DNA of 64,000 nucleotides. Origin: Blastocatellia bacterium (GTDB lineage: Bacteria > Acidobacteriota > Blastocatellia > UBA7656 > JADIYM01). A program made the translations under genes and the position numbers. The stretch spans positions 1 through 64,000 of the forward strand of contig JAJTWZ010000012.1 of assembly GCA_021463145.1 (NCBI GenBank), read 5' to 3'. Positions 14,816-56,505 of the stretch are shown here, in pieces. How positions within the stretch are numbered: the first letter of the stretch is position 1; every line of letters starts with the position of its first letter. The notes beneath the pieces are model-generated. The model did no database searches. It saw nothing but the letters and a program-made list of their open reading frames with translations, and had not been told where the DNA came from.

Positions 14816-15447
14816 GACTCACAGTCGTCAAGGGACCGGTCGCGCCGATGCGTCGTCTCGAGCCGGAAGCCGGTGTCAGACTTCGAACCGCCGTGCAGGA
14901 CGCGGCCCGGCGCGAGGCGAACGCCATTGTAGACGAAGCGAGGGAGGACGCGCGGCGGCTCGTCGCCGCTGCGAGAGCCGAGGCCGCAGGAGTCGAGGAC
15001 GAAGCCCGGCGGCTCGGAACCCGCGACGGTGCGGACCGCTGGACTCAGGCCGCTCTCGCTCTGGCATCCGCGCACGCCGAGGCGCTCGCGACGCTCGAAC
15101 GCGAAGCCCTGGCCCTGGCGCTCGAGGTTGCGCGCAGGATAGTCCGATCCCACGTCGCCTCATCGAGCGAGGCATGGGCCGAACTCGTGGCGACGTCGAC
15201 CAGCCGCCTCCGGCGCGACGGCACCCTTGTCATTCGCTTCGCGCCGTCCGACGAGTCACGCCTCGAGGCCGTTCGTGAGCGTCTCGCCAGCTTCCGCGAA
15301 GTGACCTTCGAGCGAGACGACACGCTCGAAGCTGGCGACTGCATTGCCGAATGCTCCGGCGTTCGAGTCGACGCGCGCATCGACGTTCAAATCGCGGCGA
15401 TCGAGCGGCTGCTTTGTTCCGGCCAGGACAAAGGGGCAACGCAATGA
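14812..15447 (+). CDS. sctL: T3SS ATPase stator SctL (FliH/YscL family)
   Basis: A 211-residue SctL/FliH-like protein that would bind and regulate the SctN ATPase. After a short N-terminus, residues 28-90 are an Ala/Glu/Arg-rich coiled coil (REANAIVDEAREDARRLVAA), the region that dimerises in FliH. The C-terminal globular part (about 100-205) contains ALALEVARRIV, the FliH/AtpE-like helix, and ends in IAECSGVRVDARIDVQI, a typical end of this family. The start at GTG 14812 overlaps sctK by four bases, and the stop overlaps sctN by four bases. Confidence 0.82.
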   Translation: MRLTVVKGPVAPMRRLEPEAGVRLRTAVQDAARREANAIVDEAREDARRLVAAARAEAAGVEDEARRLGTRDGADRWTQAALALASAHAEALATLEREALALALEVARRIVRSHVASSSEAWAELVATSTSRLRRDGTLVIRFAPSDESRLEAVRERLASFREVTFERDDTLEAGDCIAECSGVRVDARIDVQIAAIERLLCSGQDKGATQ

Positions 15448-16823
15448 GCGGCTTCTCGGCGCGTCCGTACATCGATCGCCTCGCGGGTTCCGACCCGCTC
15501 GAGACACACGGCAGCGTGCGAAGCGCCGTCGGATTGATCGTGCGCTGCGCGCTACCCGAGACGTGGATCGGAGAGCTCTGCGAGATCAGGGCCGATCGGG
15601 ATTCGAAGCCGATGCTCGCCGAGGTCGTCGGGTTTCGCGGCGACGAGGCGCTTCTGATGCCACTCGGCTCGATGTATCGCGTCGGCACCTCGAGCATAGT
15701 AAACCGGCTCGACCGCGCACTAACGGTCCAGGCAGGCGACGGCCTGATCGGCAGGGTCCTCGACGGACTTGGACGGCCCGCCGACGGGCGGCCCATCGCC
15801 GGCGTCGTGAGCGAACGGCCCGTGCACGCCGCACCTCCACCGCCCCTTACGCGCACTCCGCTCTCGGAGCCCTTCGCGACCGGCGTGCGCGCGATCGACG
15901 GAATGTTGACGATGGCCGAGGGTCAGCGCGTCGGAATCTTTGCAGGCGCCGGCGTTGGCAAGAGCACCCTGCTTGGGATGATCGCCCGCAACGCCAGCGC
16001 AGATGTGGTCGTCGTCGGACTGGTTGGGGAAAGAGGACGCGAAGTAAGGGAGTTCCTCGAGGTTGACCTCGGGCCGCGTGGAATGGCTCGAACGGTGGCT
16101 GTCGTCGCGACGAGCGACCAGCCTGCCCTCGTGCGGATGCACGCAGCGTACGTGGCGACGGCAATCGCGGAGCACTACCGGGCCGACGGCCTTCGAGTGC
16201 TGCTCCTCATGGACTCCGTTACGCGATTCGCGCGCGCGCTGCGGGAGATTGGACTCGCCGCCGGCGAACCGCCGGCCCGCGCCGGCTTTCCGCCTTCCGT
16301 ATTTGCCGAGCTGCCCCGATTGCTCGAGCGGACGGGAACCGACTCGCGCGGTTCGATCACCGCCATCTATACCGTGCTCGTCGAGGGCGACGATCACAAC
16401 GAACCGGTGGCGGACGAATGCCGCTCAATCCTCGACGGGCACCTGGTGCTCTCGTCCGAGAGAGCCGGGCGGGGCTACTTTCCGGCAATCGACATTGCCC
16501 GCAGCGCCAGCCGCGTGATGTCGCGCGTTGCCTCGGCCGATCACCTCGCTGCGTCCAGGCACGTCAGGGCGTTGCTCGGCGCCTACGAACGCGAGCGCGA
16601 CCTCATCCTGCTCGGCGCGTACGAACCCGGCACCGATCTGCTGGTCGACGAGGCAATCGCGAAGGTGGACGATCTCGACGCGTTTCTCGCGCAGCAACCC
16701 GACGAGTTCACGCCGCTGCCGGCAAGCGTCGCGGCCGTCGAAGCTTTCGCTCTGCCATTCGAACCTCCGGACGAGGCGTTCGGTGACGACTCCATCGACG
16801 ACGAGGACCTTGATCTCGAATGA
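15444..16823 (+). CDS. sctN: T3SS ATPase SctN (FliI/YscN family)
   Basis: A 459-residue hexameric ATPase that detaches chaperones and unfolds substrates at the export gate. Walker A is GAGVGKST (about residue 172), the family motif GERGREV follows near 199, and Walker B is LLLMDSVTR near 255. The C-terminal domain includes GRGYFPAIDI and ends in an unusually acidic tail (DDSIDDEDLDLE) that is not typical. The start ATG 15444 overlaps sctL. Homology to both FliI and YscN is strong, so it is the lipoprotein SctJ and the gene order that make it non-flagellar. Confidence 0.95.
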   Translation: MSGFSARPYIDRLAGSDPLETHGSVRSAVGLIVRCALPETWIGELCEIRADRDSKPMLAEVVGFRGDEALLMPLGSMYRVGTSSIVNRLDRALTVQAGDGLIGRVLDGLGRPADGRPIAGVVSERPVHAAPPPPLTRTPLSEPFATGVRAIDGMLTMAEGQRVGIFAGAGVGKSTLLGMIARNASADVVVVGLVGERGREVREFLEVDLGPRGMARTVAVVATSDQPALVRMHAAYVATAIAEHYRADGLRVLLLMDSVTRFARALREIGLAAGEPPARAGFPPSVFAELPRLLERTGTDSRGSITAIYTVLVEGDDHNEPVADECRSILDGHLVLSSERAGRGYFPAIDIARSASRVMSRVASADHLAASRHVRALLGAYERERDLILLGAYEPGTDLLVDEAIAKVDDLDAFLAQQPDEFTPLPASVAAVEAFALPFEPPDEAFGDDSIDDEDLDLE

Positions 16824-17323
16824 ACCGGAACTGCTATCGATTCGAACCGCTTGCCCTGCTCAGCGAACGCGGCCGGAAGCTGGCGCAGGGCCGTGTCGCC
16901 CTGGCCGCGCGGCGTGTCCGCGCGTGCGAGCGACGCGTCAGACAGATGGACGACCTCGCCGCTCGAGAGCAGGGGCGGGCAGCCGCCGCCGTGCGCGAGT
17001 CGCGCGCCGATGCCTTGGCAGTTCGCGCGGCGATCGACGCGACTGTCGATGCGATGATCTCGGCGGCAAGGGATCATCGCGCGGATGCGGCGGGGGCGCG
17101 GGTCGCGCTCGACCGGTCGATCGCCGAATGCGAGCGCCGCCGCAGCGAGGCTCGCGTCGCGGTCTCGGACGCCGAACTTCATCGCTCGGCCCGCGAGCGC
17201 GCAATGGCTCTCTCGCGGGCCAGGGCCCGCCGGAAGTGCGAGAGCCGATCGGCTGAGGACGCGTGTGCGGCCTGGGCTGCCGCGCGCAGAGACCTCGACC
17301 AGGAGGACGATCGTGCGAGTTGA
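16820..17323 (+). CDS. sctO: T3SS ATPase stalk protein SctO-like
   Basis: A 167-residue, almost entirely alpha-helical, Arg/Ala/Glu-rich protein predicted to form a two-helix antiparallel coiled coil. Size, coiled-coil character and position directly after the ATPase gene match SctO/FliJ, the central stalk that inserts into the SctN hexamer. The ATG overlaps the sctN stop (ATGA). Confidence 0.7.
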   Translation: MNRNCYRFEPLALLSERGRKLAQGRVALAARRVRACERRVRQMDDLAAREQGRAAAAVRESRADALAVRAAIDATVDAMISAARDHRADAAGARVALDRSIAECERRRSEARVAVSDAELHRSARERAMALSRARARRKCESRSAEDACAAWAAARRDLDQEDDRAS

Positions 17324-17825
17324 AACAGTGCCTGCTCAAACGAAGGCGGAAGAGCAATCGCCCGGCCGCGCGCGCTCGAACAGATCGAAGTTCCGGCAGA
17401 CGCTCGAGGATCTGCGTTCTCTTCAGTCGTGCGCGGAGATTGCTCAGGCTCCGTCCGCGCCGCTCTCGGGTGGCGCCGGACCTGTTCCCGTCGAGTTCGC
17501 CGATTCCTCGAAGGGCGCGGCGCAGGCGCGCGGCATCGATCGGGTGAAGGCGGCCGAAGCGTCTTCGGCTGTTCCGCCACTAGTTACCGGCGTTCGCACG
17601 ACATTCGTCACAGAGGACCGGCACTTGGTAGACGTCCAGGTTCGGGCGGCCGGCGAGCAGGTCATCGTGGCGATGGCCGCCGCGCCGCATCACGCCGAGC
17701 GGCTCGCCACGCACGCCGGAACGCTTGGCCGTAAACTCTCGGAACGCGGCGTCCGGGCCCGGTCGCTCAGGGTGACATCGGGCGAACATCGGCAGGGCGA
17801 CAGCAAGTCGAGGCCGTCGCGATGA
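17313..17825 (+). CDS. sctP: SctP/FliK-like length-control protein
   Basis: A 170-residue protein from GTG 17313 (AGGAGG upstream), overlapping sctO by 11 bp. The N-terminal 90 residues are low-complexity Ser/Ala/Gln-rich. The C-terminal part (LVDVQVRAAGEQVIVAMAAA followed by a helix, then SERGVRARSLRV) resembles the substrate-specificity domain of FliK/HpaP: a beta hairpin, a helix and a final strand. It is short for a ruler protein. Position between sctO and sctQ supports SctP. Confidence 0.6.
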   Translation: MRVETVPAQTKAEEQSPGRARSNRSKFRQTLEDLRSLQSCAEIAQAPSAPLSGGAGPVPVEFADSSKGAAQARGIDRVKAAEASSAVPPLVTGVRTTFVTEDRHLVDVQVRAAGEQVIVAMAAAPHHAERLATHAGTLGRKLSERGVRARSLRVTSGEHRQGDSKSRPSR

Positions 17826-19234
17826 GCGCCTCGAACACGTTGCTCGAAATCGAATCGCTGGACCAGCGACACGTGACCGTGGGCGGCGCGATCGTGCGGA
17901 CTCCGATGCCAACTGGGCTTGCCGCGAGAGTCGCGCGAGCCGCTCACGACGCAATCGCCCAACTCGCCCCGTCGAACACGCGTCCGTCGCTCGATCTCGA
18001 CTGGGACGGTGGCTCGTACAGGCTCACGGCGGACGAGACGGACTCGGGACGAGCGCTGGCGGACGCCCTGGGCGCCGATGTCATCGTTCACCGGGGCCGC
18101 GAGGGCGGACGTCTTGTCGTCGGAAGTGACGTGGTCGCCTTCTGCCAGGGGTGGCCCTTGGATCCGGGCGTCCCCTTTCGCATCGGTCACGGCGACGTCT
18201 TGCGGATCGACGGCCGTCACGTTGCCGTGCGAAACGACCCTCCGCAACTCCCGCTCGTTCGGACGGGTGGCATCGCCCTCGCTCCGATGCCGAAGGACGT
18301 GGCCTTCACAGCGCGATTCGCCATTGAACCTTCAGGCGAGCCGCTCGAGCTTCGGTGCGACCCGTTGCTCACGCGGGCTCTCGTGTGTCTGGTTCTGCGC
18401 CACGATGCGGAGCGGCCGTTCGATCCGACGGCGCTAACGAACGTCGAGCAGGCAACTCTTGACTGGCTGACAACCCGGATCGCCGAGCGGATCGGCACCG
18501 ATGTGTTCGCCAACAGGGTTGCGTTCCGACTCGCTGCCAGCGATGTTCAAACGGAAACCTGGGTCTCGGCAGTGATCGGCGTGGGGCCGGTGGCCGGCAC
18601 CGCCTGGATCGGCACCAGCGCCGCCGGAAGCGCCGCCATCGCAAGCGCACTGGCACACACGTCGGCACGTCAGGTGGCTTCGAGCCCGGCTCTTCGCGGT
18701 GTCTTCGTGACGATGGCGGCACGAATCGCGCTCGGCCGTCTGGATGCCGCAACCGTCGCCGCGGTGGAGCCGGGCGACGTGTTCGCGTCATCGGACGTGC
18801 CGTGGATCGGTGACGCAGGCTGGTCGAGCCACGGATCGCTCGTGCTGACGAGCGCCGACTCGATGGCAACGCACGTGTCATTGGAACGCGACGACCGTGG
18901 TCAACTCCGGGCTACTTTGCTCGGGCGCACCATTGAAGGAGGAAACGACGATATGCGGATCGCGGAACCACGTGAAGCTCTTGAAGACGACGCTCGGCCA
19001 TTCGCCGACGCGCTCGATGCCATCGGGGTCGACGTCGCCATCGAGGTTGCCAGGCGCCGGATCAGGCTCTCCGAAGCGCTTGCCCTTTCGACCGGCGACG
19101 TATTCGAGCTCGGATCGCCTGTCACCGCCAGGGTGTCGCTCATGATTGACGGCGCGCCATTCGCCACGGGCGAACTGGTGAACGTGGACGGCGCACTAGG
19201 CGTTCGCGTCGTCGGAACCGGAGGACGGCGATGA
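17822..19234 (+). CDS. sctQ: T3SS cytoplasmic ring/sorting platform protein SctQ
   Basis: A 470-residue SctQ. The N-terminal two thirds are divergent. The C-terminal 80 residues are a SpoA (FliN-like) domain, with RIRLSEALALSTGDVFELG, VSLMIDGAPFATGELVNVDG and LGVRVV in the expected order. A strong internal ribosome site precedes an in-frame ATG at 18953, so a separate 93-residue C-terminal SctQ is likely, as described for YscQ, SpaO and related proteins. The start overlaps sctP and the stop overlaps the FliO-SctR gene. Confidence 0.85.
   Translation: MSASNTLLEIESLDQRHVTVGGAIVRTPMPTGLAARVARAAHDAIAQLAPSNTRPSLDLDWDGGSYRLTADETDSGRALADALGADVIVHRGREGGRLVVGSDVVAFCQGWPLDPGVPFRIGHGDVLRIDGRHVAVRNDPPQLPLVRTGGIALAPMPKDVAFTARFAIEPSGEPLELRCDPLLTRALVCLVLRHDAERPFDPTALTNVEQATLDWLTTRIAERIGTDVFANRVAFRLAASDVQTETWVSAVIGVGPVAGTAWIGTSAAGSAAIASALAHTSARQVASSPALRGVFVTMAARIALGRLDAATVAAVEPGDVFASSDVPWIGDAGWSSHGSLVLTSADSMATHVSLERDDRGQLRATLLGRTIEGGNDDMRIAEPREALEDDARPFADALDAIGVDVAIEVARRRIRLSEALALSTGDVFELGSPVTARVSLMIDGAPFATGELVNVDGALGVRVVGTGGRR
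18936..18955 (+). promoter_or_regulatory. Internal ribosome site and start for short SctQ-C
   Basis: GAAGGAGG is followed after 10 bases by ATG 18953, in frame with sctQ codon 378. The product would run to 19234: 93 residues made up of the SpoA domain. The Shine-Dalgarno is the strongest within the gene and falls in the linker between the two parts of the protein, the expected place for the known SctQ-C internal start. Confidence 0.7.
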
Positions 19235-20451
19235 TCGCGAAACTCGCTCTGCCGCCAATCGGAATTGCAGCCATAGGCCTCGTCGCCGTGCTTTCACTAG
19301 TATCGGGGGGAGGCTCTGCCATTGCGCTCTCGACATTGGCGGTACTGTCTGCCGGAGCGATCGCCGTCTCACGAAACCGGCGACGTGCCCAGGCCTCCGG
19401 CGTTCGTGCTTCGATCGAGCGACTGGGCGGGTGCGGGCTCGGACCGGGCGTGGCGGTGCACGCGGTTCGAGTCGCCGACCGGGTGCTCATCGTCGGAGTC
19501 AGCGGCTCGTCGGTGACCCTTCTCGACCGAACCACCGTGGACGAGCTTGCTCCGGCCGAAATCGCAGAGATCGAAGAGGACGCGCGTGCGGCTCCGAACA
19601 CGACCCGAGCCATGCTGCGGTGGATTGGGCGCGGAGGACTCGCGATCCTGCTTCTGTCCGGTGCTGTGCTGGCCGCACCCGAGGCTTACGCGCAGTCGGA
19701 ATCGCCTCGACAGTCCGCCGACCTCGCACCGGCCGGGCGTTCTGACAGGCAGTCGAAGGATCCGCCGGCGCTGCCGGCCATCGACGTGCCTCCGGCCTCG
19801 CCGGTCGAAATGCCCGTTCCAGGTTCGACGCCGCTGGGGCCGATGCTCTGGTTAGCGGGACTCGCCGTGCTTCCCTTCGCGCTGATGGGTGTCACGTCGT
19901 TCGTGAAAATCTCGATCGTGCTGTCGCTATTGAGAAGCGCGCTTGGTACGCCGCAGGTTCCTTCTGACCCGCTGCTTGCGGGAATCGCTCTGTCACTGAC
20001 CACATTCGTGATGGCTCCCGTCGCAAGCGAGGCCTGGTCGCGCGTCGCGGCCGCCAATGCCGACCTGTCGACAACTGGCGGAGTCGTGACGGCTCTGACG
20101 GCGGCTGCGCCTCCAATCCGGCAGTTCCTCGAGCGCAATGCGCGGCCTGACGAAGTCGGCATGTTCGTCAGTCTGTCGACACGTGACGGTCACGAAGCGG
20201 CCGATCCCGGCTCGTTCGGGATTCTCGTGCCGGCATTCGTCACCAGCGAACTTCGTGAAGCATTCGTCGCCGGATTCTTTCTCTTCATACCGTTTCTGGT
20301 CGTGGACCTCGTGGTTTCCAACATCCTCATGTCGATGGGAATGGTCATGGTCTCGCCTACGACGGTCTCGTTGCCCTTCAAGGTCCTGTTGTTCGTGCTC
20401 GTCGACGGGTGGCCGCTGCTCGCGAAGGCGCTCGCGCTCAGCTACCACTGA
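19231..20451 (+). CDS. sctR: FliO-like domain fused to export gate protein SctR
   Basis: A 406-residue fusion. Residues 1-50 contain two hydrophobic helices. Residues 60-112 are a FliO-like cytosolic beta domain (DRVLIVGVSGSSVTLLDR). Residues 128-154 (from Met128) form a second signal-peptide-like segment ending AAPEAYAQ. Residues 200-406 are SctR/FliP, with VTSFVKISIVLSLLRSALGT, the segment VPAFVTSELREAFVAGFFLF and MSMGMVMVSPTTVSLPFK. FliO is a flagellar assembly factor for FliP and is normally a separate gene or absent from injectisomes. The retained FliP signal peptide suggests that signal peptidase could split the fusion. The ATG overlaps the sctQ stop. Confidence 0.88.
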   Translation: MIAKLALPPIGIAAIGLVAVLSLVSGGGSAIALSTLAVLSAGAIAVSRNRRRAQASGVRASIERLGGCGLGPGVAVHAVRVADRVLIVGVSGSSVTLLDRTTVDELAPAEIAEIEEDARAAPNTTRAMLRWIGRGGLAILLLSGAVLAAPEAYAQSESPRQSADLAPAGRSDRQSKDPPALPAIDVPPASPVEMPVPGSTPLGPMLWLAGLAVLPFALMGVTSFVKISIVLSLLRSALGTPQVPSDPLLAGIALSLTTFVMAPVASEAWSRVAAANADLSTTGGVVTALTAAAPPIRQFLERNARPDEVGMFVSLSTRDGHEAADPGSFGILVPAFVTSELREAFVAGFFLFIPFLVVDLVVSNILMSMGMVMVSPTTVSLPFKVLLFVLVDGWPLLAKALALSYH

Positions 20452-20463
20452 AGGAGGAACCCG

Positions 20464-20727
20464 ATGGACTCGATCGTCGTCACCACCTGCCAGCAGGCAT
20501 TGCTGGCCGTTCTGATCCTGTCGGCGCCGGCGGCACTTACCGCCGTCCTGGTCGGACTCGTAGTCAGCGTCCTGCAGACCGCAACGCAGATCCAGGAGCA
20601 GACGCTCTCTTACGTGCCGAAACTGGTGGCCGTCAGCGCCGCGCTCGCAGTCGCGGGACCGTGGATGCTTGCGGAGCTCGTTCGATTGGCCACATCGATG
20701 TTCGAACGGGTCGCGGAGGCGATGTGA
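20464..20727 (+). CDS. sctS: Export gate protein SctS (FliQ family)
   Basis: An 87-residue protein with two hydrophobic helices (about 12-37 and 51-75) and the conserved loop QTATQIQEQTLSYVPK between them, the hallmark of FliQ/SctS. It lies 12 bp after sctR with AAGGAGG just before the ATG. It forms the export gate with SctR and SctT. Confidence 0.95.
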   Translation: MDSIVVTTCQQALLAVLILSAPAALTAVLVGLVVSVLQTATQIQEQTLSYVPKLVAVSAALAVAGPWMLAELVRLATSMFERVAEAM

Positions 20728-21479
20728 ACCTCGCACTCGAGTCGTGGCTGCTCGTTTTCACCCGCATTGCGCCGATCGTCGCGCTTCATCCGGTCTTCGG
20801 CGGCCGCGCGACGCCTTCAATCGTGAAGGCGTCGGTCGCGTGCGTACTGGCAACGGTCTTCTGGTCCGATCGGGCCGTTGCGAGCCCCCAGGGCCCTCTG
20901 CTCGTGAACGCAGTGACGCAGGCAGCGATCGGACTCGCGGTCGCAGCAGTTGGCATCGCCGTTTTCGGCGCGATAGAGGCGGCCGGGCGATTCGTCGACG
21001 ACGCCCGAGGTGCGAACGCGGCCCGTCTTTTCGCGCCACACCTGGAAGCGTCGACGAGTCCGCTCGGCGCACTCGACGCTGCCGCTTCGCTTGCACTGTT
21101 CTGGTCTGCTGGCCTTCATTCCGTGCTCATCGAGTCGATCAGCTCGAGCTTCGATACTCTGCCGGTTGGTGCAAGGCCGGCCGGCCCAATCGCGGACCGC
21201 GCCGCCTTTCTGACCTTCACGGTCGACGCCATCGGCGCGCTCTGCAGAGCGGGACTCGCGATGGCAGGACCGGCGGCCGCGGCAACGGTCACCGTCGACG
21301 CATTCTTCGGCCTGGTCAACCGCTCGAGCCCACAGGCGCCTGTCTTCTCGCTGAGCCTTCCGGTGAAGCTCGTGGCCGCTCTGGCAGTAACGGCATTGGC
21401 GGTTCCGGGACGCGCCGGGCAGTGGGCCGAGGCGTTCAGGCTTCACGACGGATGGATCCGATCGATACTTGGAGGATGA
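20724..21479 (+). CDS. sctT: Export gate protein SctT (FliR family)
   Basis: A 251-residue integral membrane protein starting at GTG 20724 and overlapping sctS by four bases. It has about six hydrophobic segments and FliR/SctT features: the early RIAPIVALHPVFGG, the region IEAAGRFVDDARG, and the late FFGLVNRSSPQAPVFSLSLP. It is completed by SctR and SctS to form the export gate. Confidence 0.93.
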   Translation: MNLALESWLLVFTRIAPIVALHPVFGGRATPSIVKASVACVLATVFWSDRAVASPQGPLLVNAVTQAAIGLAVAAVGIAVFGAIEAAGRFVDDARGANAARLFAPHLEASTSPLGALDAAASLALFWSAGLHSVLIESISSSFDTLPVGARPAGPIADRAAFLTFTVDAIGALCRAGLAMAGPAAAATVTVDAFFGLVNRSSPQAPVFSLSLPVKLVAALAVTALAVPGRAGQWAEAFRLHDGWIRSILGG

Positions 21480-22306: not shown

Positions 22307-22876
22307 CTAACGAACACGCTTCACGAACTCGCCGGTGGTCGTATCGACGAGGATGCGCTCGCCCGAGTCGAGGTAGAGCGGCACCCTGACGGTTGCTCCC
22401 GTCGCGACCTTCGCTTCCTTCATGACCTTTCCCGCCGCCGTATCGCCCCTCGCCGCGCTCTCGACCTCGACGACTTCGACTTCCACGAACTGTGGGAGCT
22501 CGATGCTGACGACCGCGCCGTTGTATATCGTGGACTTCACGATCGTGTTCTCGGCCAGAAATCCGACGGCGTCGCCGAGGGCTTCCGCGGAGAATGCGAA
22601 CTGTTCGTAGGACTCCTGATCCAGGAAGTTGTACTCTCCCCCTCCTTCGTAGAGGTACTGTGCATCTCGCTGCTCTACATCGGGCTCGTCGAACTTGTCT
22701 CCGGCCTTGAAAGTCTTCTCGAGCACCTGCGAAGTGAGTATGTGACGGATCTTGGTTCGGTAAAGCGTAGCCGCGCCACGAGCCGATGGCGATTGCACGG
22801 AATATTCGAGAACCGTGAACGGCTGACCGTCGACGAGAATCTGGGCGCCGCGTTTGAAATCGGATGTGCTGATCAT
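22307..22876 (-). CDS. efpL: Elongation factor P family protein, EfpL (YeiP)-type
   Basis: A 189-residue, three-domain EF-P family protein that relieves ribosome stalling at proline-rich sequences. The loop at the tip of domain I reads SPSARGAATLY, as in E. coli YeiP/EfpL (SPTARGAATLY), where an Arg stands in place of the modifiable Lys/Arg34 of canonical EF-P; no modification enzyme is seen nearby. Domains II/III include GGEYNFLDQESYEQ and the C-terminal DSGERILVDTTTGEFVKR. It is convergent with the T3SS operon, 13 bp away. Whether the genome also has a canonical EF-P cannot be told from here. Confidence 0.92.
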   Translation of the reverse strand: MISTSDFKRGAQILVDGQPFTVLEYSVQSPSARGAATLYRTKIRHILTSQVLEKTFKAGDKFDEPDVEQRDAQYLYEGGGEYNFLDQESYEQFAFSAEALGDAVGFLAENTIVKSTIYNGAVVSIELPQFVEVEVVEVESAARGDTAAGKVMKEAKVATGATVRVPLYLDSGERILVDTTTGEFVKRVR

Positions 22877-44627: not shown

Positions 44628-45938
44628 ATGAACCGCGAACAGTTGCGGCGCAAAGTCGCCTTGCAGACTTCGGTGGAATCGACGAAGGTAGCCCGCGCCA
44701 TCGAGGCGATGCTCGAAATCATGGGTGCCGCACTCGTAAGGGGCGAGTCCGTCTCGATGCGGGGACTCGGAATGCTCGAGCCTCGTACGGCACGCAGCGG
44801 ATTGCGGTCGGTGCGATTGCGGCCTGCCAGGGTACGCCACCCGGCGAAATCAGGAACTGAATCGACAACAACACTTTTCGGAGGAGTCATGGATCAAAGA
44901 GCTCACCAGGACGAGCGAGGCGGGGGCGATCAAGGCGATCAGCGTTCCCAGGATACCGCACCGCTCGGTCTCGACATCGGGACCAGCCGGATCGTGCTAT
45001 CGCGCGGAACGGGTCACGGCGCGAAGACCGAAACCCAACTGAACGCGTTCGTTTCGGTCCCCTACTCGAAGTTCACCGAGAACATCCTCAAACAGAACAA
45101 GGTCGGCTATTACCTGAACGGTGGGCGGGAGATTTTCATTTTTGGTAACGAGTCCGAGAAGTTTGCGTCGTTCTTCAACGTCGATGCACGCAGGCCGATG
45201 AAGGCAGGCGTCCTGAACCCGTCCGAAGAGAACGGACTGCTCGTCATCCAGACGATCATCGAGAAGTTGCTGCCAAAGACCAAAAAGCACGAGATGGTCT
45301 GCTTCAGCGTGCCGGGGCCGGGACGCGACATGACGTCGGACCTCGTGTACCACGAAGCGATGCTCAAGAACCTGCTTCAAGGTCTCGGCTACCGGGCCAA
45401 GGCGATCAACGAGGGCCTGGCGGTCATATTCTCGGAACTCGAGAGCGAGAACTTCACGGGCATCGGCATCAGCGCCGGCGGCGGTATGTGCAACGTGTGT
45501 CTGGCCTACATGTCGGTACCGGTCTTCCAGTTCAGCACGAACCGGGCAGGCGACTACATCGACCAGAGCGTGGCTTCGGTGGTTGGCGACGCAACGACTC
45601 GGGTGCGAGTTGCAAAGGAAGAGAGCCTGGACCTGCGAAGGACGCCACAGACGAAGATCGAGCAGGCCCTGTCGATCTACTACGAGGAAATGATACTTTC
45701 GCTCGTAGAAGCACTGCGGACCGATTTCGTGCGGGCCGCGAACCTGCCGAGGATGGACCGGCCGATTCCGATCGTGCTCAGCGGCGGCACCGCATCGCCG
45801 AAAGGATTCGTGGAGAAATTCGCAAGCGCTCTCGAACAGGCCGACCTGCCGTTCAAGGTTTCGGATGTAAGAATCGCGTCCGATCCGCTCACAGCCACGG
45901 CGCGCGGATGCGCCATTGCCGCAATGCACGAAGAGTAA
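44628..45938 (+). CDS. HU-like domain in frame with an actin-like (MreB/ParM-type) ATPase
   Basis: One open frame of 436 residues. Residues 1-70 resemble HU/IHF DNA-binding proteins (MNREQLRRKVALQTSVES, GESVSMRGLGMLEPRTA), though the long beta arm is short. Residues 104-436 are an actin-like ATPase: phosphate-1 LGLDIGTSRIVLS, phosphate-2-like GIGISAGGGMCNV and adenosine motif PIVLSGGTASPKG. A strong internal ribosome site lies before Met88 (44889), so the actin-like part can also be made alone. Either it is a true fusion, or two genes whose stop was lost. A cytoskeletal, DNA-linked role is inference. Confidence 0.75.
   Translation: MNREQLRRKVALQTSVESTKVARAIEAMLEIMGAALVRGESVSMRGLGMLEPRTARSGLRSVRLRPARVRHPAKSGTESTTTLFGGVMDQRAHQDERGGGDQGDQRSQDTAPLGLDIGTSRIVLSRGTGHGAKTETQLNAFVSVPYSKFTENILKQNKVGYYLNGGREIFIFGNESEKFASFFNVDARRPMKAGVLNPSEENGLLVIQTIIEKLLPKTKKHEMVCFSVPGPGRDMTSDLVYHEAMLKNLLQGLGYRAKAINEGLAVIFSELESENFTGIGISAGGGMCNVCLAYMSVPVFQFSTNRAGDYIDQSVASVVGDATTRVRVAKEESLDLRRTPQTKIEQALSIYYEEMILSLVEALRTDFVRAANLPRMDRPIPIVLSGGTASPKGFVEKFASALEQADLPFKVSDVRIASDPLTATARGCAIAAMHEE
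44879..44891 (+). promoter_or_regulatory. Internal ribosome site and start of the actin-like part
   Basis: CGGAGGAGTC directly precedes ATG 44889, in frame with the HU-like region. This is one of the strongest Shine-Dalgarno sequences around and would give a 349-residue actin-like protein ending at 45938. Confidence 0.7.
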
Positions 45939-46201: not shown

Positions 46202-46531
46202 CTATGCGCTGAACGACGACCCGCAGCCGCAGCCTCCCGTCGAGTTCGGGTTCTTGAACGTGAATCCCGAACCCATGACCGAGCTGACGTAGTCGATCTC
46301 AACGTTGTCCAGGTACTGGGCGCTGAACATATCGACAAATACCCGCACGCCGTTCATCTCCGACACACTGTCGTCCTCGCGGGGCGACTCTTCGATCTCC
46401 ATGGCGTACTGGAATCCCGAGCAGCCACCGGGAATCACACGAACGCGCAGTCCGCCCTCGTCCGAGAGTTCCTCTTCCGACATGAACTTCTTGACCTCGA
46501 GGGCCGCGGCTTCCGTCATCATGAGATTCAT
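46202..46531 (-). CDS. erpA: A-type iron-sulfur carrier (ErpA/IscA/HesB family)
   Basis: A 109-residue carrier with the three conserved Cys: GGCSGFQY (about residue 37) and GCGC near the C-terminus (GGCGCGSSFSA). It would deliver Fe-S clusters to apoproteins. It lies in an island with NifU-type, Mrp-type and SufR-type genes. Confidence 0.93.
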   Translation of the reverse strand: MNLMMTEAAALEVKKFMSEEELSDEGGLRVRVIPGGCSGFQYAMEIEESPREDDSVSEMNGVRVFVDMFSAQYLDNVEIDYVSSVMGSGFTFKNPNSTGGCGCGSSFSA

Positions 46532-49831: not shown

Positions 49832-50263
49832 GTGGAAGATATTGAGGCCGATTTACTGCTGCTTCGCGGGTTGGTTGCCCGCGAACTTGATACAATCAAC
49901 GTGTATCGGAGTCTTGCTGCCGAGACCGATGACGGACCGGCGCGTGAGTTTATTCTGCATGTCGTTGAGGAGGAAAAGTCGCATATTTCCGAAACTCTCA
50001 GGGTGATAGTAGGGCTCGATCCGGATCAGGCCGGGTTGCTTCAATCCGGATTTGCGGAAGGCCATCAGACTGGGCAGATTCCGGAACCTGTATCGACTAT
50101 AGGGTCGCTCGCCGTCGGGCCGATCTCGGCCGAGTCCGGCGCGAATCGTACTACCTCGGTCGCTGAAGATTCCTTCGCGGTCGAATCATCTACCCGAAGT
50201 CGACCCGTCGTGCCTAACGCCTGGACCGTGGGCAGTCTGCGAGGGCTTCCGTACCCTGAGTAG
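49832..50263 (+). CDS. Ferritin-like protein with encapsulin cargo-loading peptide
   Basis: A 143-residue protein from GTG 49832 (AGAGG upstream). The first 65 residues are two helices with E18 and E48-x-x-H51 (VARELDTINVYRSL, HVVEEEKSHISETL), the pattern of encapsulated ferritins (EncFtn), which form iron-oxidising decamers. A 60-residue Ser/Thr-rich linker ends in WTVGSLRG at 131-138, which matches the known cargo-loading peptide of encapsulin systems (consensus TVGSLRR/GSLKG). No encapsulin shell gene is in the window. It is probably packed into an encapsulin made elsewhere. Confidence 0.82.
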   Translation: MEDIEADLLLLRGLVARELDTINVYRSLAAETDDGPAREFILHVVEEEKSHISETLRVIVGLDPDQAGLLQSGFAEGHQTGQIPEPVSTIGSLAVGPISAESGANRTTSVAEDSFAVESSTRSRPVVPNAWTVGSLRGLPYPE

Positions 50264-50519: not shown

Positions 50520-51008
50520 ATGTCAATTCTTTCAGAGGTCGTCGACACCGTCCGAACACTCGCTGGCGGTCTGGCGCATACAATTGCCAGAATTCCCCAA
50601 CCGAAGACCACGATCAGCTATCCCGAGGATCCAGTTCCCCTCTCGGCGCGGTTTCGAGGCGAACACTTCTTGGACACGGATGAAACGGGTCGGGAGCGTT
50701 GCGTAGCCTGCTTTCTCTGTTCGGCGATCTGCCCGGCCGAGGCGATCTACATCGAAGGCGCGGACGATCCTAGAGCATATCCAGATCGAGTGGGTGTCGA
50801 TGCGCGATTCGCGTCTGTTTATCGAATCGACTACGGCCGATGCATTCTGTGCGGGTTCTGTGTCGAGGCGTGCCCAAAGGATGCCATCAAGCATGGGCAT
50901 GATTTCGAAATGGCGTCCTATACACGCGAAGGATTGATCCGGGAGAAAGATGCGCTTCTGGCGAATCGAGATCGTCAAAGGGGCCTTCACATCACGATCC
51001 GGACGTAG
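50520..51008 (+). CDS. nuoI: NADH-quinone oxidoreductase subunit I-like ferredoxin
   Basis: A 162-residue NuoI homologue. The preceding RFRGEHFL, the two 4Fe-4S motifs CVACFLCSAICP and CILCGFCVEACP, and the C-terminal YTREGLIREKDALLA are all typical, so the electron path to the quinone should be intact. It is isolated: no other nuo genes are adjacent, apart from the NuoE-like domain in the SufR fusion 1.4 kb away. It could serve a partial complex I or a dedicated ferredoxin role for the neighbouring iron genes. Confidence 0.9.
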   Translation: MSILSEVVDTVRTLAGGLAHTIARIPQPKTTISYPEDPVPLSARFRGEHFLDTDETGRERCVACFLCSAICPAEAIYIEGADDPRAYPDRVGVDARFASVYRIDYGRCILCGFCVEACPKDAIKHGHDFEMASYTREGLIREKDALLANRDRQRGLHITIRT

Positions 51009-51335: not shown

Positions 51336-51351
51336 CGTTCCACGTGGAGCA
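51336..51351. promoter_or_regulatory. parS: parS-like palindrome
   Basis: CGTTCCACGTGGAGCA matches the bacterial parS consensus TGTTNCACGTGNAACA at 14 of 16 positions and lies about 90 bp after the parB stop. It is the obvious loading site for the adjacent ParB. Confidence 0.8.
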
Positions 51352-51438
51352 GCAGGTGTGCCGAGCGCACCGCAGAAGCGAAAGCGTTTGGGGGCGATCG
51401 ATTAATCCTGGCGGTATAGACTGTGGATTCGGTTGCGT

Positions 51439-52518
51439 CTACAGCACTCTCAGGAGCGCATCTATCGCCGCCGCTATCTCCGTCCTGCGCGCCGGGCCAT
51501 AATTGTCGGCATTCGTCGTCTCCAGCCGGTCGATAAGATCGTTGAATCTCACGTCAAGCATTGAGGTTCCTCGGCGCTGAAAACTCCTGACAGATTCGAC
51601 TGTCGTCGAAGATCGCTCTGTAACATGTTCGGGACCAGCCTCTGGATCGCCGATGAGCTTCAAAACCTCAGACTGGAGTGCGCGCACGGAGAGGCCGCCG
51701 GACTTTGCGCGTTCGATAAGCTCTACACGAAGCGACCTGGCGCGCTGCTCGTCTCCGCCCAGTCGTTCGGGCGTCAGCCGGGCAATCGCTCGGGCCTTGG
51801 AATAAGTAATCTGCCCGGCGCGAAGAGCGTCGAGTAGCTCGTCAGGTAGACTGAGAAGTGGCAGCCGGTGCGAGACGAACGACTGCCACGTAATCCTACC
51901 TACGCGATGAAAGACTTCCGCAACAAGCGGTTCGAGTCGAAGGACGGCGTCGTCCTTGGAGTTCCCGGCGAGGCGGTTGTTCAGCGCTCTCAGTAAACGA
52001 ATCGCTCCGACGTGAGGCCTCTCCGCGTCACGATATATCGACAAATCGGGATCAAGGCTGATCTTATCGGACAAGAGATCCAAGTAGCCTTCGGCCTCCT
52101 CCAGCACGTTCAGGTCTTCGCGCTGCAGATTTTCGACCATTGCTACAGTCCTGACATTGACGTCGTCGATTTCAACCACTCGGGCAGGTACAGTTTCGAG
52201 GCCCGCCGCCTGGGCGGCGCGCCAGCGCCTTTCTCCCGCAATAATCTCGAAAAACCCATCTCCGTCCGATGATCTGCGGACCAGGATGGGCTGAAGCACG
52301 CCGTGAACGCGAATGGACTCCGTCAGTTCTCGTAGCGACGCCGCGTCAAACGTCACACGCGGCTGATGTCTACCGGGCCTTAAGTGTGTTACCTGTATCT
52401 CCAATCCCGACGGCTCAGCAACGTCAGGGTCGCCAGCCTCGACGGCACGGCGAGTCGGATCGGCTACAGGCACAGAGCTCTGAAAGAGCGCGTCAATTCC
52501 AATTTGCTTCTTAGCCAC
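51439..52518 (-). CDS. parB: Partition protein ParB
   Basis: A 359-residue ParB. The N-terminal CTPase part has LRPGRHQPR, GVLQPILVR and the diagnostic GERRWRAAQAAG, followed by MVENLQREDLNVLEEAEGY. The central helix-turn-helix region is divergent and contains an insert (about 150-230) compared with chromosomal ParB. The C-terminal part should dimerise. The start GTG 52518 is chosen because GGAGG lies just before it; an ATG at 52533 would add five residues. Same strand and order as parA. Confidence 0.93.
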   Translation of the reverse strand: MAKKQIGIDALFQSSVPVADPTRRAVEAGDPDVAEPSGLEIQVTHLRPGRHQPRVTFDAASLRELTESIRVHGVLQPILVRRSSDGDGFFEIIAGERRWRAAQAAGLETVPARVVEIDDVNVRTVAMVENLQREDLNVLEEAEGYLDLLSDKISLDPDLSIYRDAERPHVGAIRLLRALNNRLAGNSKDDAVLRLEPLVAEVFHRVGRITWQSFVSHRLPLLSLPDELLDALRAGQITYSKARAIARLTPERLGGDEQRARSLRVELIERAKSGGLSVRALQSEVLKLIGDPEAGPEHVTERSSTTVESVRSFQRRGTSMLDVRFNDLIDRLETTNADNYGPARRTEIAAAIDALLRVL

Positions 52519-52723
52519 GAAATCCTCCACCATTGACTCACAAGCTGGACAGGCTCTGGCAGTCCCTCAACCATGGTCGGCCATCGCGAGCCGGTCTATT
52601 CCGCATCCCGCGATCAGCCGTTAACACGAGACCGCGCGAGAATCCATCCTGACAAATAAGAAAGCAAGTCGACAATCAAGCCGGCAAGCAAGCCGGACGA
52701 CGTAGTCCTTACCCAGCAACTCC

Positions 52724-53467
52724 TCATCCGCCGAGGGCATCCGCCAACCTTCGAATGTCAGCGATCCCATCGTAGCCAGGTTGGTGTTTCTGAACCGGCA
52801 CGGCATGGGCGCTCGCCTCCGCGAATGCAACTCCTCGACGAATCGGTTCGAACACCGTCAGCTTTTCACCGAGTCGGTTCTTTAGAACCTCATAACTCTC
52901 CGTATTCAGTCGCGTCCTCCGATCCAGAAGAGTCGGAACGACGCCAGCGATCTTCAGCTTCGGATTCAGTCCGCGCACTCGATCGATCGTCTCGAACAGG
53001 TGACGGGTCCCGCGCAGAGCCTTGATCTCACATTGGACTGGAATCAGGATCTCGGTGGCCGCGACAAGCACGTTGATTGAGATGTTACCGAGCGACGGCG
53101 GAGCATCGACAAAGATTACGTCGAAATCCGCCTCGACTTTCTCGAGCACCTGCCGCAACCGTAACTCTCGCCCGATTTCAGCAGCCAGTAGGAAGTCCGC
53201 TGCGGCCAAATCAATCGACGACGGGAGCACCGTCAGTCCGTGCATTTCTACAAGGCTCGGCAAAGCGCCGTGAAGAAGTGCATCGAACAAACTCGACTCG
53301 AGCCTGTCCGACTCGACGCCGAAGAACTCAGTCAGTGAAGCCTGCGGATCTGCATCCACGAGCAGGACCCGAGAACCGCGGATTGCGAACTCGTAGCCAA
53401 GATCTCGGGTAAGGGACGTCTTTCCGACGCCACCGGCCTGATTGAATACCGCGATTACACGTGCCAC
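52724..53467 (-). CDS. parA: Partition ATPase ParA with variant Walker A
   Basis: A 247-residue ParA. Walker A is NQAGGVGKTS, with Ala in the position of the signature Lys of the KGGVGKT motif. Walker A' VLLVDADPQ and Walker B IFVDAPPSLG are present. This NQAGGV form occurs in a subgroup of plasmid ParA proteins. The start is GTG 53467 with GGAG upstream. Iteron-like repeats precede it (53489-53552), suggesting RepA or ParA control of expression. Confidence 0.93.
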   Translation of the reverse strand: MARVIAVFNQAGGVGKTSLTRDLGYEFAIRGSRVLLVDADPQASLTEFFGVESDRLESSLFDALLHGALPSLVEMHGLTVLPSSIDLAAADFLLAAEIGRELRLRQVLEKVEADFDVIFVDAPPSLGNISINVLVAATEILIPVQCEIKALRGTRHLFETIDRVRGLNPKLKIAGVVPTLLDRRTRLNTESYEVLKNRLGEKLTVFEPIRRGVAFAEASAHAVPVQKHQPGYDGIADIRRLADALGG

Positions 53468-53488
53468 GTCTCATACTCCAGGTCTGCC

Positions 53489-53552
53489 AATTGCTGATAC
53501 TTGCAGAAAGATCCCAGACAGTTGGCATAGAACTATTGATACTTGGAGGAAA
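53489..53552 (+). repeat. Three iteron-like repeats upstream of parA
   Basis: Contiguous copies at 53489-53510 (TTGCTGATACTTGCAGAAAG core), 53511-53530 (degenerate) and 53531-53552 (ATTGATACTTGGAGGAAA core). They match the array at 54034-54252 and lie where the parA promoter should be, so initiator binding may repress parAB. Confidence 0.75.
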
Positions 53553-54033
53553 CCCCCACGCTGACCCTTTCAATGTGATATATGCCGAGAGACTTTTTAG
53601 GTTGCTCGTGGTGCTCTTTGACAAGCTGTGACAGGCTATGGCATCTCTCGACAGTTCCGACTCGCACTATCGCATAAACGTCCTTCCTTGTCATGGTCGA
53701 GAATCAGGGCAGAAGAGTTGCGTGAACTTGGCGTTTTTTTTTGGGGGGGGGATTTGGGCGCGTGCCCCAGGCAGGACGGTGGCGATACGACGGCGCACTT
53801 CCACCGAATCCAGCGTCACCAATCCAAATTTTGCCACCGATGCAGCCGCCGATGGTCCGAAGCGCACTAGTGGCCGGCACGCGCAGACTTGTTCAGGAGC
53901 AGGACCGGTTCCGTTCAGCCGATAGCACGGAAAGGGCAGTTCGTCTGACTCTGATCCCTCCGTAACCGACCGAAGCGTGGCTGCCCGTGGCACTACTCCG
54001 AACCTGCAACCAACAGCCGCCATTGCGACGGCA
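53553..54033. other. Left part of the origin region
   Basis: About 480 bp with no gene that I trust. It contains a homopolymer block of nine T then nine G (53734-53751). Several short frames cross it but change at the homopolymer and have no ribosome site. Confidence 0.5.
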
Positions 54034-54252
54034 GACTGCTGACATTTGGCGTAAAGATTGCTGATACTTGACGTAAATCCAGTGATTATTGACGTAAAGA
54101 TTGCTGATCAATGGCGGAAAGACTCGCGACTCATGGCGAAAACTGCATGAACAATGGAGGAACTACGGTCTCGACAACCCCGAACGATTACAGACACTTG
54201 GGGGAACCGATTGCTGACACTTGACGGAAGGGTCGCGACAGATGGAATAAGG
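54034..54252 (+). repeat. Iteron array of a replication origin
   Basis: Direct repeats of about 22 bp, consensus core TTGCTGACACTTGACG followed by GAAA. Copies start at 54034, 54056, 54078, 54099, 54121, 54143, 54186, 54209 and 54231. The spacing of two helical turns is typical for initiator binding. The array lies 500 bp before repA and on its strand. AT-rich sequence follows (54255-54300). Confidence 0.85.
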
Positions 54253-54756
54253 AGGCGTACCTAACATCTTTATTTGCAGTACTTATGGCACCTGCCCGGA
54301 TGTCTTCTTGTTGTCAGTGATGTTTTGATTGTCATGAGATTGTTCTGCCATCCGGTTGTCGAACAACAGATTTCCAGTCTTCGGGTCCGTTCTCGGTGTG
54401 TACACACGAGCTAAAGCTCTTTTTCGGTCGCAGCCTCGGACGAGCCAGGCATTCGGCAACTTCTGTACCGAACCCAGACTGGAAAGCCGAGACTGTTTCC
54501 GGTTCACACTTGTCTGGTTGCTATCTGTCTGGTTGTTCCCGGTTCGGCCGTAATCGAGCCGGTTGACACTTGGAGTAAGTGAAGTATGAAAGAAGACCGA
54601 AAGAAGACCGAAAGAAGACTGAAGGCGCACTGGAAGAGGGCTGAAGGAAGCGAGGGAGAAGCGCGGGATAAGCGCGGGATAAGCGTGTAGGAAGCGTAGG
54701 GAAAGCGTAAGTGGGAGAGTTGTGGGGTTGGAGGAAGTCACTTCCAGTCGGGGCAG
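54253..54756. other. Origin region between iterons and repA, with purine-strand tract
   Basis: It contains an AT-rich stretch, one more iteron-like copy at 54559-54579 (TTGACACTTGGAGTAAG core) and, at 54585-54715, a strand made almost wholly of A and G, with tandem 11-bp units GAAAGAAGACC and later GCGCGGGATAA. Such 11-bp-phased asymmetric tracts are common next to origins and may help melting. An antisense 212-residue frame spans this area but is produced by the purine tract. Confidence 0.6.
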
Positions 54757-56367
54757 GTGCCGAGCGTTGAACAGTTCACCCAGGATGATGTCGTAATGAC
54801 TAAATCGCGCGAGTCGAAGTCTGCGATCTCGGTTGCGTCGGATCGAAGCAGTGGGACCGGCGGACGCAGCCACTCTTCCAAGCGATCCGCCGTGGGCGGA
54901 CTCGCTGGTCGAATAGGTCATGATCGAAATGCCAGCGACCTTGTGCGTGTTGCTTTCGACGAGTTCAACCTTGCTACGTTTCCGATCTCAGTACTCGACA
55001 AGAAGGCCCAGTCGAGCAAGGAGCCGCTCCAGTTCAACGACACCATCACCTGGAACGGCGAGCGAGTCGACCGGATGTGGAAAGTATTTCCGCACCCCGA
55101 GAAGGGATTTCCGGGACCGATCGACGACGACGTTATGATGGCGCTACTCGAGCTGACCCGCGAGCAGGGAGGATCCAAGCGCGTTTTCTTCTCGCGCTAT
55201 GACCTCCTCAAGCGACTCGGCTGGCCAATCAACGCGACCTACTACACTCGGCTCGAGACGAGCTTCAAGAAACTGGCGGCAGTGCGTGTCGAAGCCATCA
55301 ACGCCTTTGGCGACAGGGCTCGCAAGCGCTTCGTCAACATGGGACTTACTTTCATACAAGAGTGGAAACTGAACAGTGAGACGCGAGGAGGCGAGAAGTC
55401 GAGCTACATCCTATGGTCCGATCGCATAGCCGATTCGATCAATCAGGAACTCACGCGATATCTTGATGCGACGTTCTATTTCGAGGAGCTCACTTCCGCA
55501 ATCGAGCGTCGACTCTTCCGGTATCTCGATAATTACTTCGACAACAAACAGTTCTCTCTAGTGCTAAACGTCCGAGACCTCTCACACGAGCACCTGGGAG
55601 TCAGCCGCCAGTACAAGTACATTTCCCAGGTAATGCAGCGCCTCGAACCGGCGTTGAACACGCTTGTCGAGAAGGGCTATCTCGAGAGTTGGCTGCTTTC
55701 CGGTGAGAACCTCTACGTGTACAAGCGTCCAGACTTCGGCGCGCGCCTTCAGCTCGCACTTCCGTTCCTTGCTGCTTGCGAACCTGCTGGCCCCGATGCA
55801 TCTTCTGACATCCGAGTGCTGGAACGCCTGCTCGTAGAACGCGGAGTCGTCGCCCCAGTCGCCGCTCGACTTTGCAGCGACGACTCTGCAGACCAGCGCG
55901 ATCGCATCGACCGGGCGATCCGATATCTGGACGGCGAACTTGCAGCAGGCAAGCGATTCGCCAATCCCGGTGGATTCCTGGTAAGTCTCATTGGCCGTGG
56001 AGCGCCCGAGGCACCGAGCCGCCGCGCCACTGTCGCCAGGCAAGGACCGGAGTTGCCCTCGTCCAATCAGCCCGCGGCTTCCGTACCCAAAGCGGCACGG
56101 CCGAGCTACGAAATCGAGTACGCCTATCAGTCCTACCTCAACGAACTCGGACTTCGCTCATACGAAGGGACGCCGCCAGAGGAACTCGAGGCTCTCGTTG
56201 CTGCAAAACGTCGCGAACTACTCTCGTCGAAGCACGAAAAGACATTCCGCAAGATGCCAGAACAGGCCTTCGACGAACACGTTCGCTACGTGATTCGCAA
56301 AGACATGGCCGCAGCGCGTGCCGTCCCGTTTGAAGTATGGCTCGGCAAGTGGAATCAGAATGCATGA
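54757..56367 (+). CDS. repA: Plasmid-type replication initiator protein (RepA/RPA-like)
   Basis: A 536-residue initiator-like protein. After a basic, Ser-rich N-terminus (1-50), residues 60-330 resemble the RepA/TrfA-like winged-helix initiators (TFPISVLDKKAQSSKEPLQF, SRYDLLKRLGWP, ERRLFRYLDNYFDNK, and VSRQYKYISQVMQRLEPAL). The C-terminus (about 350-536) is a mixed helical region unlike common plasmid Reps. The start is GTG 54757; ATG 54796 is an alternative. Position next to iterons and parAB makes replication initiation very likely. Confidence 0.8.
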   Translation: MPSVEQFTQDDVVMTKSRESKSAISVASDRSSGTGGRSHSSKRSAVGGLAGRIGHDRNASDLVRVAFDEFNLATFPISVLDKKAQSSKEPLQFNDTITWNGERVDRMWKVFPHPEKGFPGPIDDDVMMALLELTREQGGSKRVFFSRYDLLKRLGWPINATYYTRLETSFKKLAAVRVEAINAFGDRARKRFVNMGLTFIQEWKLNSETRGGEKSSYILWSDRIADSINQELTRYLDATFYFEELTSAIERRLFRYLDNYFDNKQFSLVLNVRDLSHEHLGVSRQYKYISQVMQRLEPALNTLVEKGYLESWLLSGENLYVYKRPDFGARLQLALPFLAACEPAGPDASSDIRVLERLLVERGVVAPVAARLCSDDSADQRDRIDRAIRYLDGELAAGKRFANPGGFLVSLIGRGAPEAPSRRATVARQGPELPSSNQPAASVPKAARPSYEIEYAYQSYLNELGLRSYEGTPPEELEALVAAKRRELLSSKHEKTFRKMPEQAFDEHVRYVIRKDMAAARAVPFEVWLGKWNQNA

Positions 56368-56483
56368 AACCTCCCACGAGATCGTCACGCAGACCCGGGA
56401 ATACCTCTGTGTCGTCACACGTATCTGCCTGGAATCGACTTGCCTGCCGGCCAGTTGCACGCACTTACGTGTCGAGGTCCCTC

Positions 56484-56505
56484 GATTGTTGACAGTTGGC
56501 GGAAG
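56484..56505 (+). repeat. Single iteron downstream of repA
   Basis: GATTGTTGACAGTTGGCGG plus AAG matches the array consensus. It lies 117 bp after repA and 90 bp before the MglA-like gene. Confidence 0.65.

Follow-up and report, generated by a model that had tools for sequence, protein, structure and literature searches.

A RepA-iteron-ParABS module in an uncultured Blastocatellia bacterium as the probable origin of a chromid related to Chloracidobacterium chromosome 2

What kind of replicon is served by plasmid-type replication and partition elements that lie among housekeeping genes? The question is raised by positions 51336-56505 of a 64,000-nucleotide stretch of DNA, called the window here, from an uncultured Blastocatellia bacterium (Acidobacteriota; assembly GCA_021463145.1). 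The window covers the initial 64 kb of contig C24 (JAJTWZ010000012.1, 80,177 bp), and the assembly comprises 173 contigs and 5.28 Mb. An original prediction, made from the window alone, had offered three options: a chromid, an integrated plasmid origin, or a chromosome replicated by an iteron/RepA system. The chromid was best supported here, because its nearest relatives with near-complete genomes carry this RepA on a second chromosome of 1.0-1.08 Mb and because the gene content of C24 leans towards that replicon. There is a probability of about 70 % that the module at 51336-56505 acts as functional origin and partition locus for a chromid, and that this chromid is a homologue of Chloracidobacterium chromosome 2.

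The predicted parS-like site, parB, parA, purine tract and RepA-type initiator were all found in place. The predicted nine-copy iteron array was readable as about nine units, of which units 1-4 and 8 were well conserved and the rest degenerate. The elements follow each other in this order:

51336-51351, no strand: parS-like 16-bp palindrome CGTTCCACGTGGAGCA, 88 bp past the 3' end of parB (genome-wide pattern search and local scan)
51439-52533, minus strand: parB, centromere-binding partition protein, 364 aa (Pfam ParB_N 2.7e-31, HTH_ParB 6.5e-9)
52724-53467, minus strand: parA, partition ATPase, 247 aa (Pfam AAA_31 3.1e-44)
53489-53552, plus strand: two iterons upstream of parA, probably operator copies (repeat families D3/D5; mismatch scan, 53495 and 53537)
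54034-54252, plus strand: main iteron array of about nine direct repeat units of 21-23 bp, with GATTGCTGATACTTGACGTAAA as best consensus (repeat finding, mismatch scan, genome-wide specificity)
54268-54278, plus strand: T-rich CTTTATTTGCA box just 3' of the array, candidate DNA-unwinding element
54558-54580, plus strand: lone iteron between array and purine tract (repeat family D5; mismatch scan, 54564)
54588-54708, plus strand: 11-bp-phased purine-rich tract of GAAAGAAGACC / GAAGCGCGGGA units (TRF period 11)
54757-56367, plus strand: repA, replication initiator of an iteron-binding family, 536 aa (Replication initiator protein A, PF10134, 7.2e-11; tree; predicted fold)
56484-56505, plus strand: lone iteron downstream of repA (TGACAGTTGGCGGAA at 56490, among six matches in the genome)

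An alternative ATG start of repA was located at 54796. A 212-aa open reading frame (ORF) opposite the origin (54283-54921, minus strand) matched no Pfam family and was taken as spurious.

The AlphaFold model of RepA was of moderate quality (pLDDT 65). Its best matches among solved structures were domains 2-3 of RctB, which initiates Vibrio chromosome 2 (Foldseek 9.3e-8), followed by RepE (1.5e-3), and comparison of the RepA sequence with PDB chains returned no significant match. As modelled, RepA is probably an initiator of the RctB/RepE kind with tandem winged helices, and the combination of PF10134 with these fold matches is what would be expected of the initiator of an iteron-type theta replicon.

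The iteron motif TGAYACTTGACGTAA, with up to three mismatches, occurred seven times in 53441-54756, always on the plus strand (shuffle mean 0.04), and only once in the other 75 kb of C24. The stricter motif TGAYNNTTGRCGKAA was matched six times in the 5.28-Mb genome, five of these within the module. The 21-23-bp units of the array agree with the definition of iterons as direct repeats of 17-24 bp with helical spacing near an initiator gene. No DnaA box (TTATNCACA, up to one mismatch) was detected in 53441-54760; such boxes are common, not universal, in iteron origins. The phased purine tract may serve in bending or unwinding.

As for partition, parA, parB and a putative cognate parS lie side by side, as in a ParABS system. 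The sequence GTTCCACGTGGAGC at 51337 was among five genome sites no more than one mismatch away from GTTCCACGTGGAAC in the genome-wide pattern search, and a 14-mer of the C24 site recurred at position 19497 of contig C96, which carries dnaA.

The dnaA gene itself bears directly on the question. The original prediction had noted that no DnaA gene was visible, which held for the window and failed for the genome. The search for dnaA/oriC elsewhere that it had proposed located dnaA on C96 (E 1.3e-73), with seven DnaA-box-like sites at 10.5-13.0 kb, parAB at 20.7-22.1 kb and a pair of parS sites, one at 19,497 and one at 20,480, the latter a perfect GTTCCACGTGGAAC next to the C96 parAB. Two systems thus coexist in the genome, a standard oriC on C96 and the RepA/iteron system. 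That the main chromosome itself replicates from RepA and iterons might be read from the housekeeping genes on C24; this option of the original prediction is contradicted by C96, where dnaA is accompanied by a cluster of DnaA boxes, by parAB and by two parS sites, as well as by a C24 origin devoid of DnaA boxes, and replication of the chromosome through RepA alone is rejected with next to no residual doubt.

Homologues of RepA were detected at E < 1e-70 in families f3 (the Chloracidobacterium family), f4, f5 and f6 by a class-wide search. Phylum-wide, a RepA profile reached E <=1e-30 in 11 of 396 genomes, ten of them from class Blastocatellia; judged by sequence, RepA belongs to a small clade that is almost confined to this class. 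The tree placed the window RepA together with f4 (100/99), and this joint group was sister to the RepAs of f3 (98/98). Contig C84 encodes another RepA of this genome, which grouped with f5/f6. Scanning genome contigs with the single RepA sequence gave no relatives, and an alignment-based scan gave eight named loci in metagenome-assembled genomes (MAGs). One locus, L210 (JAAFHI010000046.1), is titled 'Actinomycetota bacterium' and displayed a Chloracidobacterium-family RepA with iterons; its scaffold name reads Acidobacteria, and the label is probably wrong. Altogether, three or four further initiator genes of the Replication initiator protein A (RPA) type were found on C84, C85, C92 and C154 of the genome studied here (G000). 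C84 and C85 displayed iteron families of their own, unlike that of the window, and the codon use of C92 was deviant.

A matching architecture was encountered in two uncultured Blastocatellia MAGs of family f4, G011 and G013 (JACQZQ01 and JAEUQL01). The order parB-parA/iterons/repA was identical to that of the window; in both MAGs three iterons lie beside parA and others before repA. The ParA adjacent to their repA was 65-68% identical to that of the window, and ParB was 40% identical to the ParB in equivalent position of G011:C31 and G013:C22. G011 also displayed a 10-11-bp-phased TTGATCTAGC tract in the corresponding intergenic region. In contrast, the GC content of these MAGs is only 34-41% and most flanking genes are unlike those of the window.

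In the three two-contig genomes of Chloracidobacterium (f3), repA was found on the smaller contig (C2), of 1,075,403, 1,012,010 and 1,000,103 bp. We take the 1,012,010-bp contig to be chromosome 2 of C. thermophilum B. Chromosome 2 of C. validum BV2-C, to which G007:C2 corresponds, is published (PMC12816986), and Chloracidobacterium has been counted among chromid carriers (PMC12456017). RepA of the window was 42% identical to the C. thermophilum/C. validum type (E 1e-111), a large array of related iterons lies upstream of repA, and ParAB is encoded on the same replicon. Its parAB genes, however, do not adjoin repA in C. thermophilum but lie about 18 kb away; the ParA was 38% identical to that of the window (42% for the ParA of the dnaA contig), and no GTTCCACGTGGAAC-like parS was found beside the C. 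thermophilum parAB. Iterons read TGATACTTGACGTAAA in the window, TATTAACAGTTGAAATAAA in f4 and TATTGACCTTTGACATAAA in f3, where they form two sub-arrays upstream of repA; the core is TTGACCTTTGACATAA in Chloracidobacterium versus TGATACTTGACGTAA in the window. G013, G009 and G010 share with the window a CTTTATTT(G/T)CA box that comes after the array. As far as can be read from these sequences, the iterons have kept both their sequence and their array layout along with RepA from 34 to 63% GC. Between the two iteron sub-arrays of Chloracidobacterium-family origins (G006:C2 992.2-992.7 kb; L209-L213; G009:C91) lies a palindrome near ACCACAATATNTTGTGGT that is similar to an NrdR box.

On C. thermophilum chromosome 2, repA is located at 993 kb. 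The cumulative GC-skew minimum fell at 1006 kb (raw) or 979 kb (detrended) and the maximum at 352 kb. Since the minimum lies by repA, replication very probably starts at this homologous locus.

Whether C24 belongs to such a replicon was approached through its other genes. Reciprocal matches to chromosome 2 alone were uninformative because other contigs matched it too, and a 0.8-Mb sample of the 2.68-Mb C. thermophilum chromosome 1 was therefore added to the comparison. C24 genes with a good C. thermophilum match then fell on chromosome 2 in nine cases and on the chromosome 1 sample in two, versus two and seven for the genes of C96 (Fisher p=0.02). A cysteine-synthase/JAB/ThiF gene trio on C24 was collinear with chromosome 2. 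Two further genes served as markers:

46202-46531, minus strand: erpA/iscA-type Fe-S carrier, sole copy in the genome (one match in own genome)
22307-22876, minus strand: elongation factor P (EF-P) paralogue, marker of replicon identity (64-65% identical to the C2 EF-P of three Chloracidobacterium genomes)

The three Chloracidobacterium genomes displayed one erpA match each, always on C2. The EF-P of C24 was only 35-37% identical to the copies on their C1, and a second EF-P of the genome studied here, on its own contig C1, scored like those copies. In Chloracidobacterium, erpA and this EF-P paralogue are confined to chromosome 2. C24 also displays traits of chromids: core genes (single-copy erpA, pfkA and the EF-P paralogue), a chromosome-like composition (GC 62.7% vs 61.8%, with codon use closest to that of the dnaA contig) and plasmid-type replication and partition genes.

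Homology with chromosome 2 is accordingly suggested by the sister clades of RepA, the 9:2 bias and the partition of erpA and EF-P, and several observations weigh against the reading as a homologous chromid. Chromosome 1 was covered in part, and set against the length share alone, nine of 11 genes on chromosome 2 gave p=0.07. Family f2, of the same order, lacked RepA in the class-wide search. For an MglA-like GTPase and an HTH-2Fe-2S (ferredoxin-HTH) protein beside the module, the nearest homologues in Chloracidobacterium were encoded on chromosome 1. The GC skew of C24, another check proposed with the original prediction, was weak, without a switch at the module, and too weak to place an origin. 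No terminal overlap of C24 was found; it is an 80-kb contig among 173, and its circularity and separateness were unseen.

Some of these observations would suit a remnant origin, derived from a plasmid or chromid after its fusion with the main chromosome and either silent or acting as a second origin. Housekeeping genes flank the module on both sides, the composition of C24 resembles that of the dnaA contig, no skew switch marks the module, and some of the neighbours reside on chromosome 1 in Chloracidobacterium; chromosome-chromid fusions are, moreover, documented in other bacteria (PMC8729776). Such a history is nevertheless unlikely, as array, parAB and parS are all intact, complete relatives carry RepA on a separate replicon and the gene content of C24 leans towards chromosome 2. 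The integrated plasmid origin of the original prediction fared similarly: no scar was seen on C24, which is a draft contig. Gene content, codon use and neighbours fit a chromid, and a fused replicon less well.

C24 could also be part of an ordinary megaplasmid in a multi-plasmid strain, unrelated to chromosome 2, its RepA being shared through plasmid exchange among Blastocatellia. The presence of four or five RPA-type genes, spread over different contigs and in at least two cases accompanied by an iteron family of their own, would agree with this, as would the same-order relatives without this RepA and a ParA just 38% identical to that of chromosome 2. For such a plasmid, erpA in its only copy, pfkA, an EF-P and genes for flagellar-type export would be surprising cargo, however. 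No transfer genes were found among the annotated proteins, and the codon use of C24 matches the dnaA contig, C92 being the outlier; we consider this origin of C24 quite improbable.

If the locus is a chromid origin, RepA would bind the 22-bp iterons, open the adjacent T-rich/phased region and recruit or load the replicative helicase. With iterons located at the parA promoter and next to repA, autoregulation and handcuffing would become possible, and ParA and ParB would segregate the replicon by way of the nearby parS. In the source organism this replicon would be physically separate, the main chromosome replicating on its own from the dnaA/oriC on C96.

Three further features were observed elsewhere in the window. 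At 15351-21479 lie the genes for flagellar-type export (EscN/FliI-type ATPase, FliN-like, FliP, FliR); the non-motile Chloracidobacterium has some of their homologues on chromosome 2. An EncB-like encapsulin ferritin cargo gene (49832-50263, below the family cut-off) adjoins a nuoI-like gene (50520-51008). A MamK-like actin homologue (44730-45938, far below the family cut-off) lies near the replicon module.

Iterons were not limited to the origin in Chloracidobacterium. In the three genomes (G001, G006 and G007), exact TTGACCYTTGRCRTAA sites were all found on chromosome 2 and none on chromosome 1. C. thermophilum displayed 14 in the array and, scattered over the replicon, six exact and one near-exact copies, where a fourth-order Markov background expects none. 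The scattered copies (G006:C2 9714, 174642, 348303, 555926, 741774, 908440 and 974066) were 66-208 kb apart, and G001:C2 and G007:C2 likewise harbored scattered single iterons. Of the seven, six lay within predicted ORFs of either orientation, and a shared protein motif is therefore not an easy explanation. They could titrate RepA. It is conceivable, if still doubtful, that an ancient RepA/iteron second chromosome with its own core genes predated the split of several Blastocatellia families and orders, and that the scattered iterons of the Chloracidobacterium branch, absent from chromosome 1, act as replicon-specific titration or handcuffing sites.

These results point to the initiator, iterons and skew minimum of the Chloracidobacterium second chromosome. 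The origin of that chromosome seems undescribed in the Chloracidobacterium literature, where our search found no paper also mentioning iterons. The replicon would extend to a lineage outside the Chloracidobacterium family and, if homologous, would represent a chromid retained across families and orders, with a RepA-iteron pair that appears to have co-evolved between 34% and 63% GC.

Among more distant systems, RepA shares 25-30% identity with homologous RPA-family initiators from plasmids of Planctomycetes, Deinococcus and Rubrobacter; these are likened by protein sequence, are distant, and reside on plasmids of about 24-430 kb. In cisII of Deinococcus radiodurans chromosome II, 11 iterons of 18 bp lie upstream of parAB and combine origin with parS-like function (PMC7671480). 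The iteron sequence is different there, and DnaA binding has been reported for cisII, in contrast to the window origin without a DnaA box. RctB of Vibrio cholerae, which RepA did not match at sequence level, acts on 12-mers and 39-mers (PMC7858055), unlike the 22-bp iterons of the window. The predicted fold of RepA is nevertheless closest to RctB domains 2-3, and V. cholerae chromosome 2 likewise offers the example of an iteron-driven second-chromosome origin.

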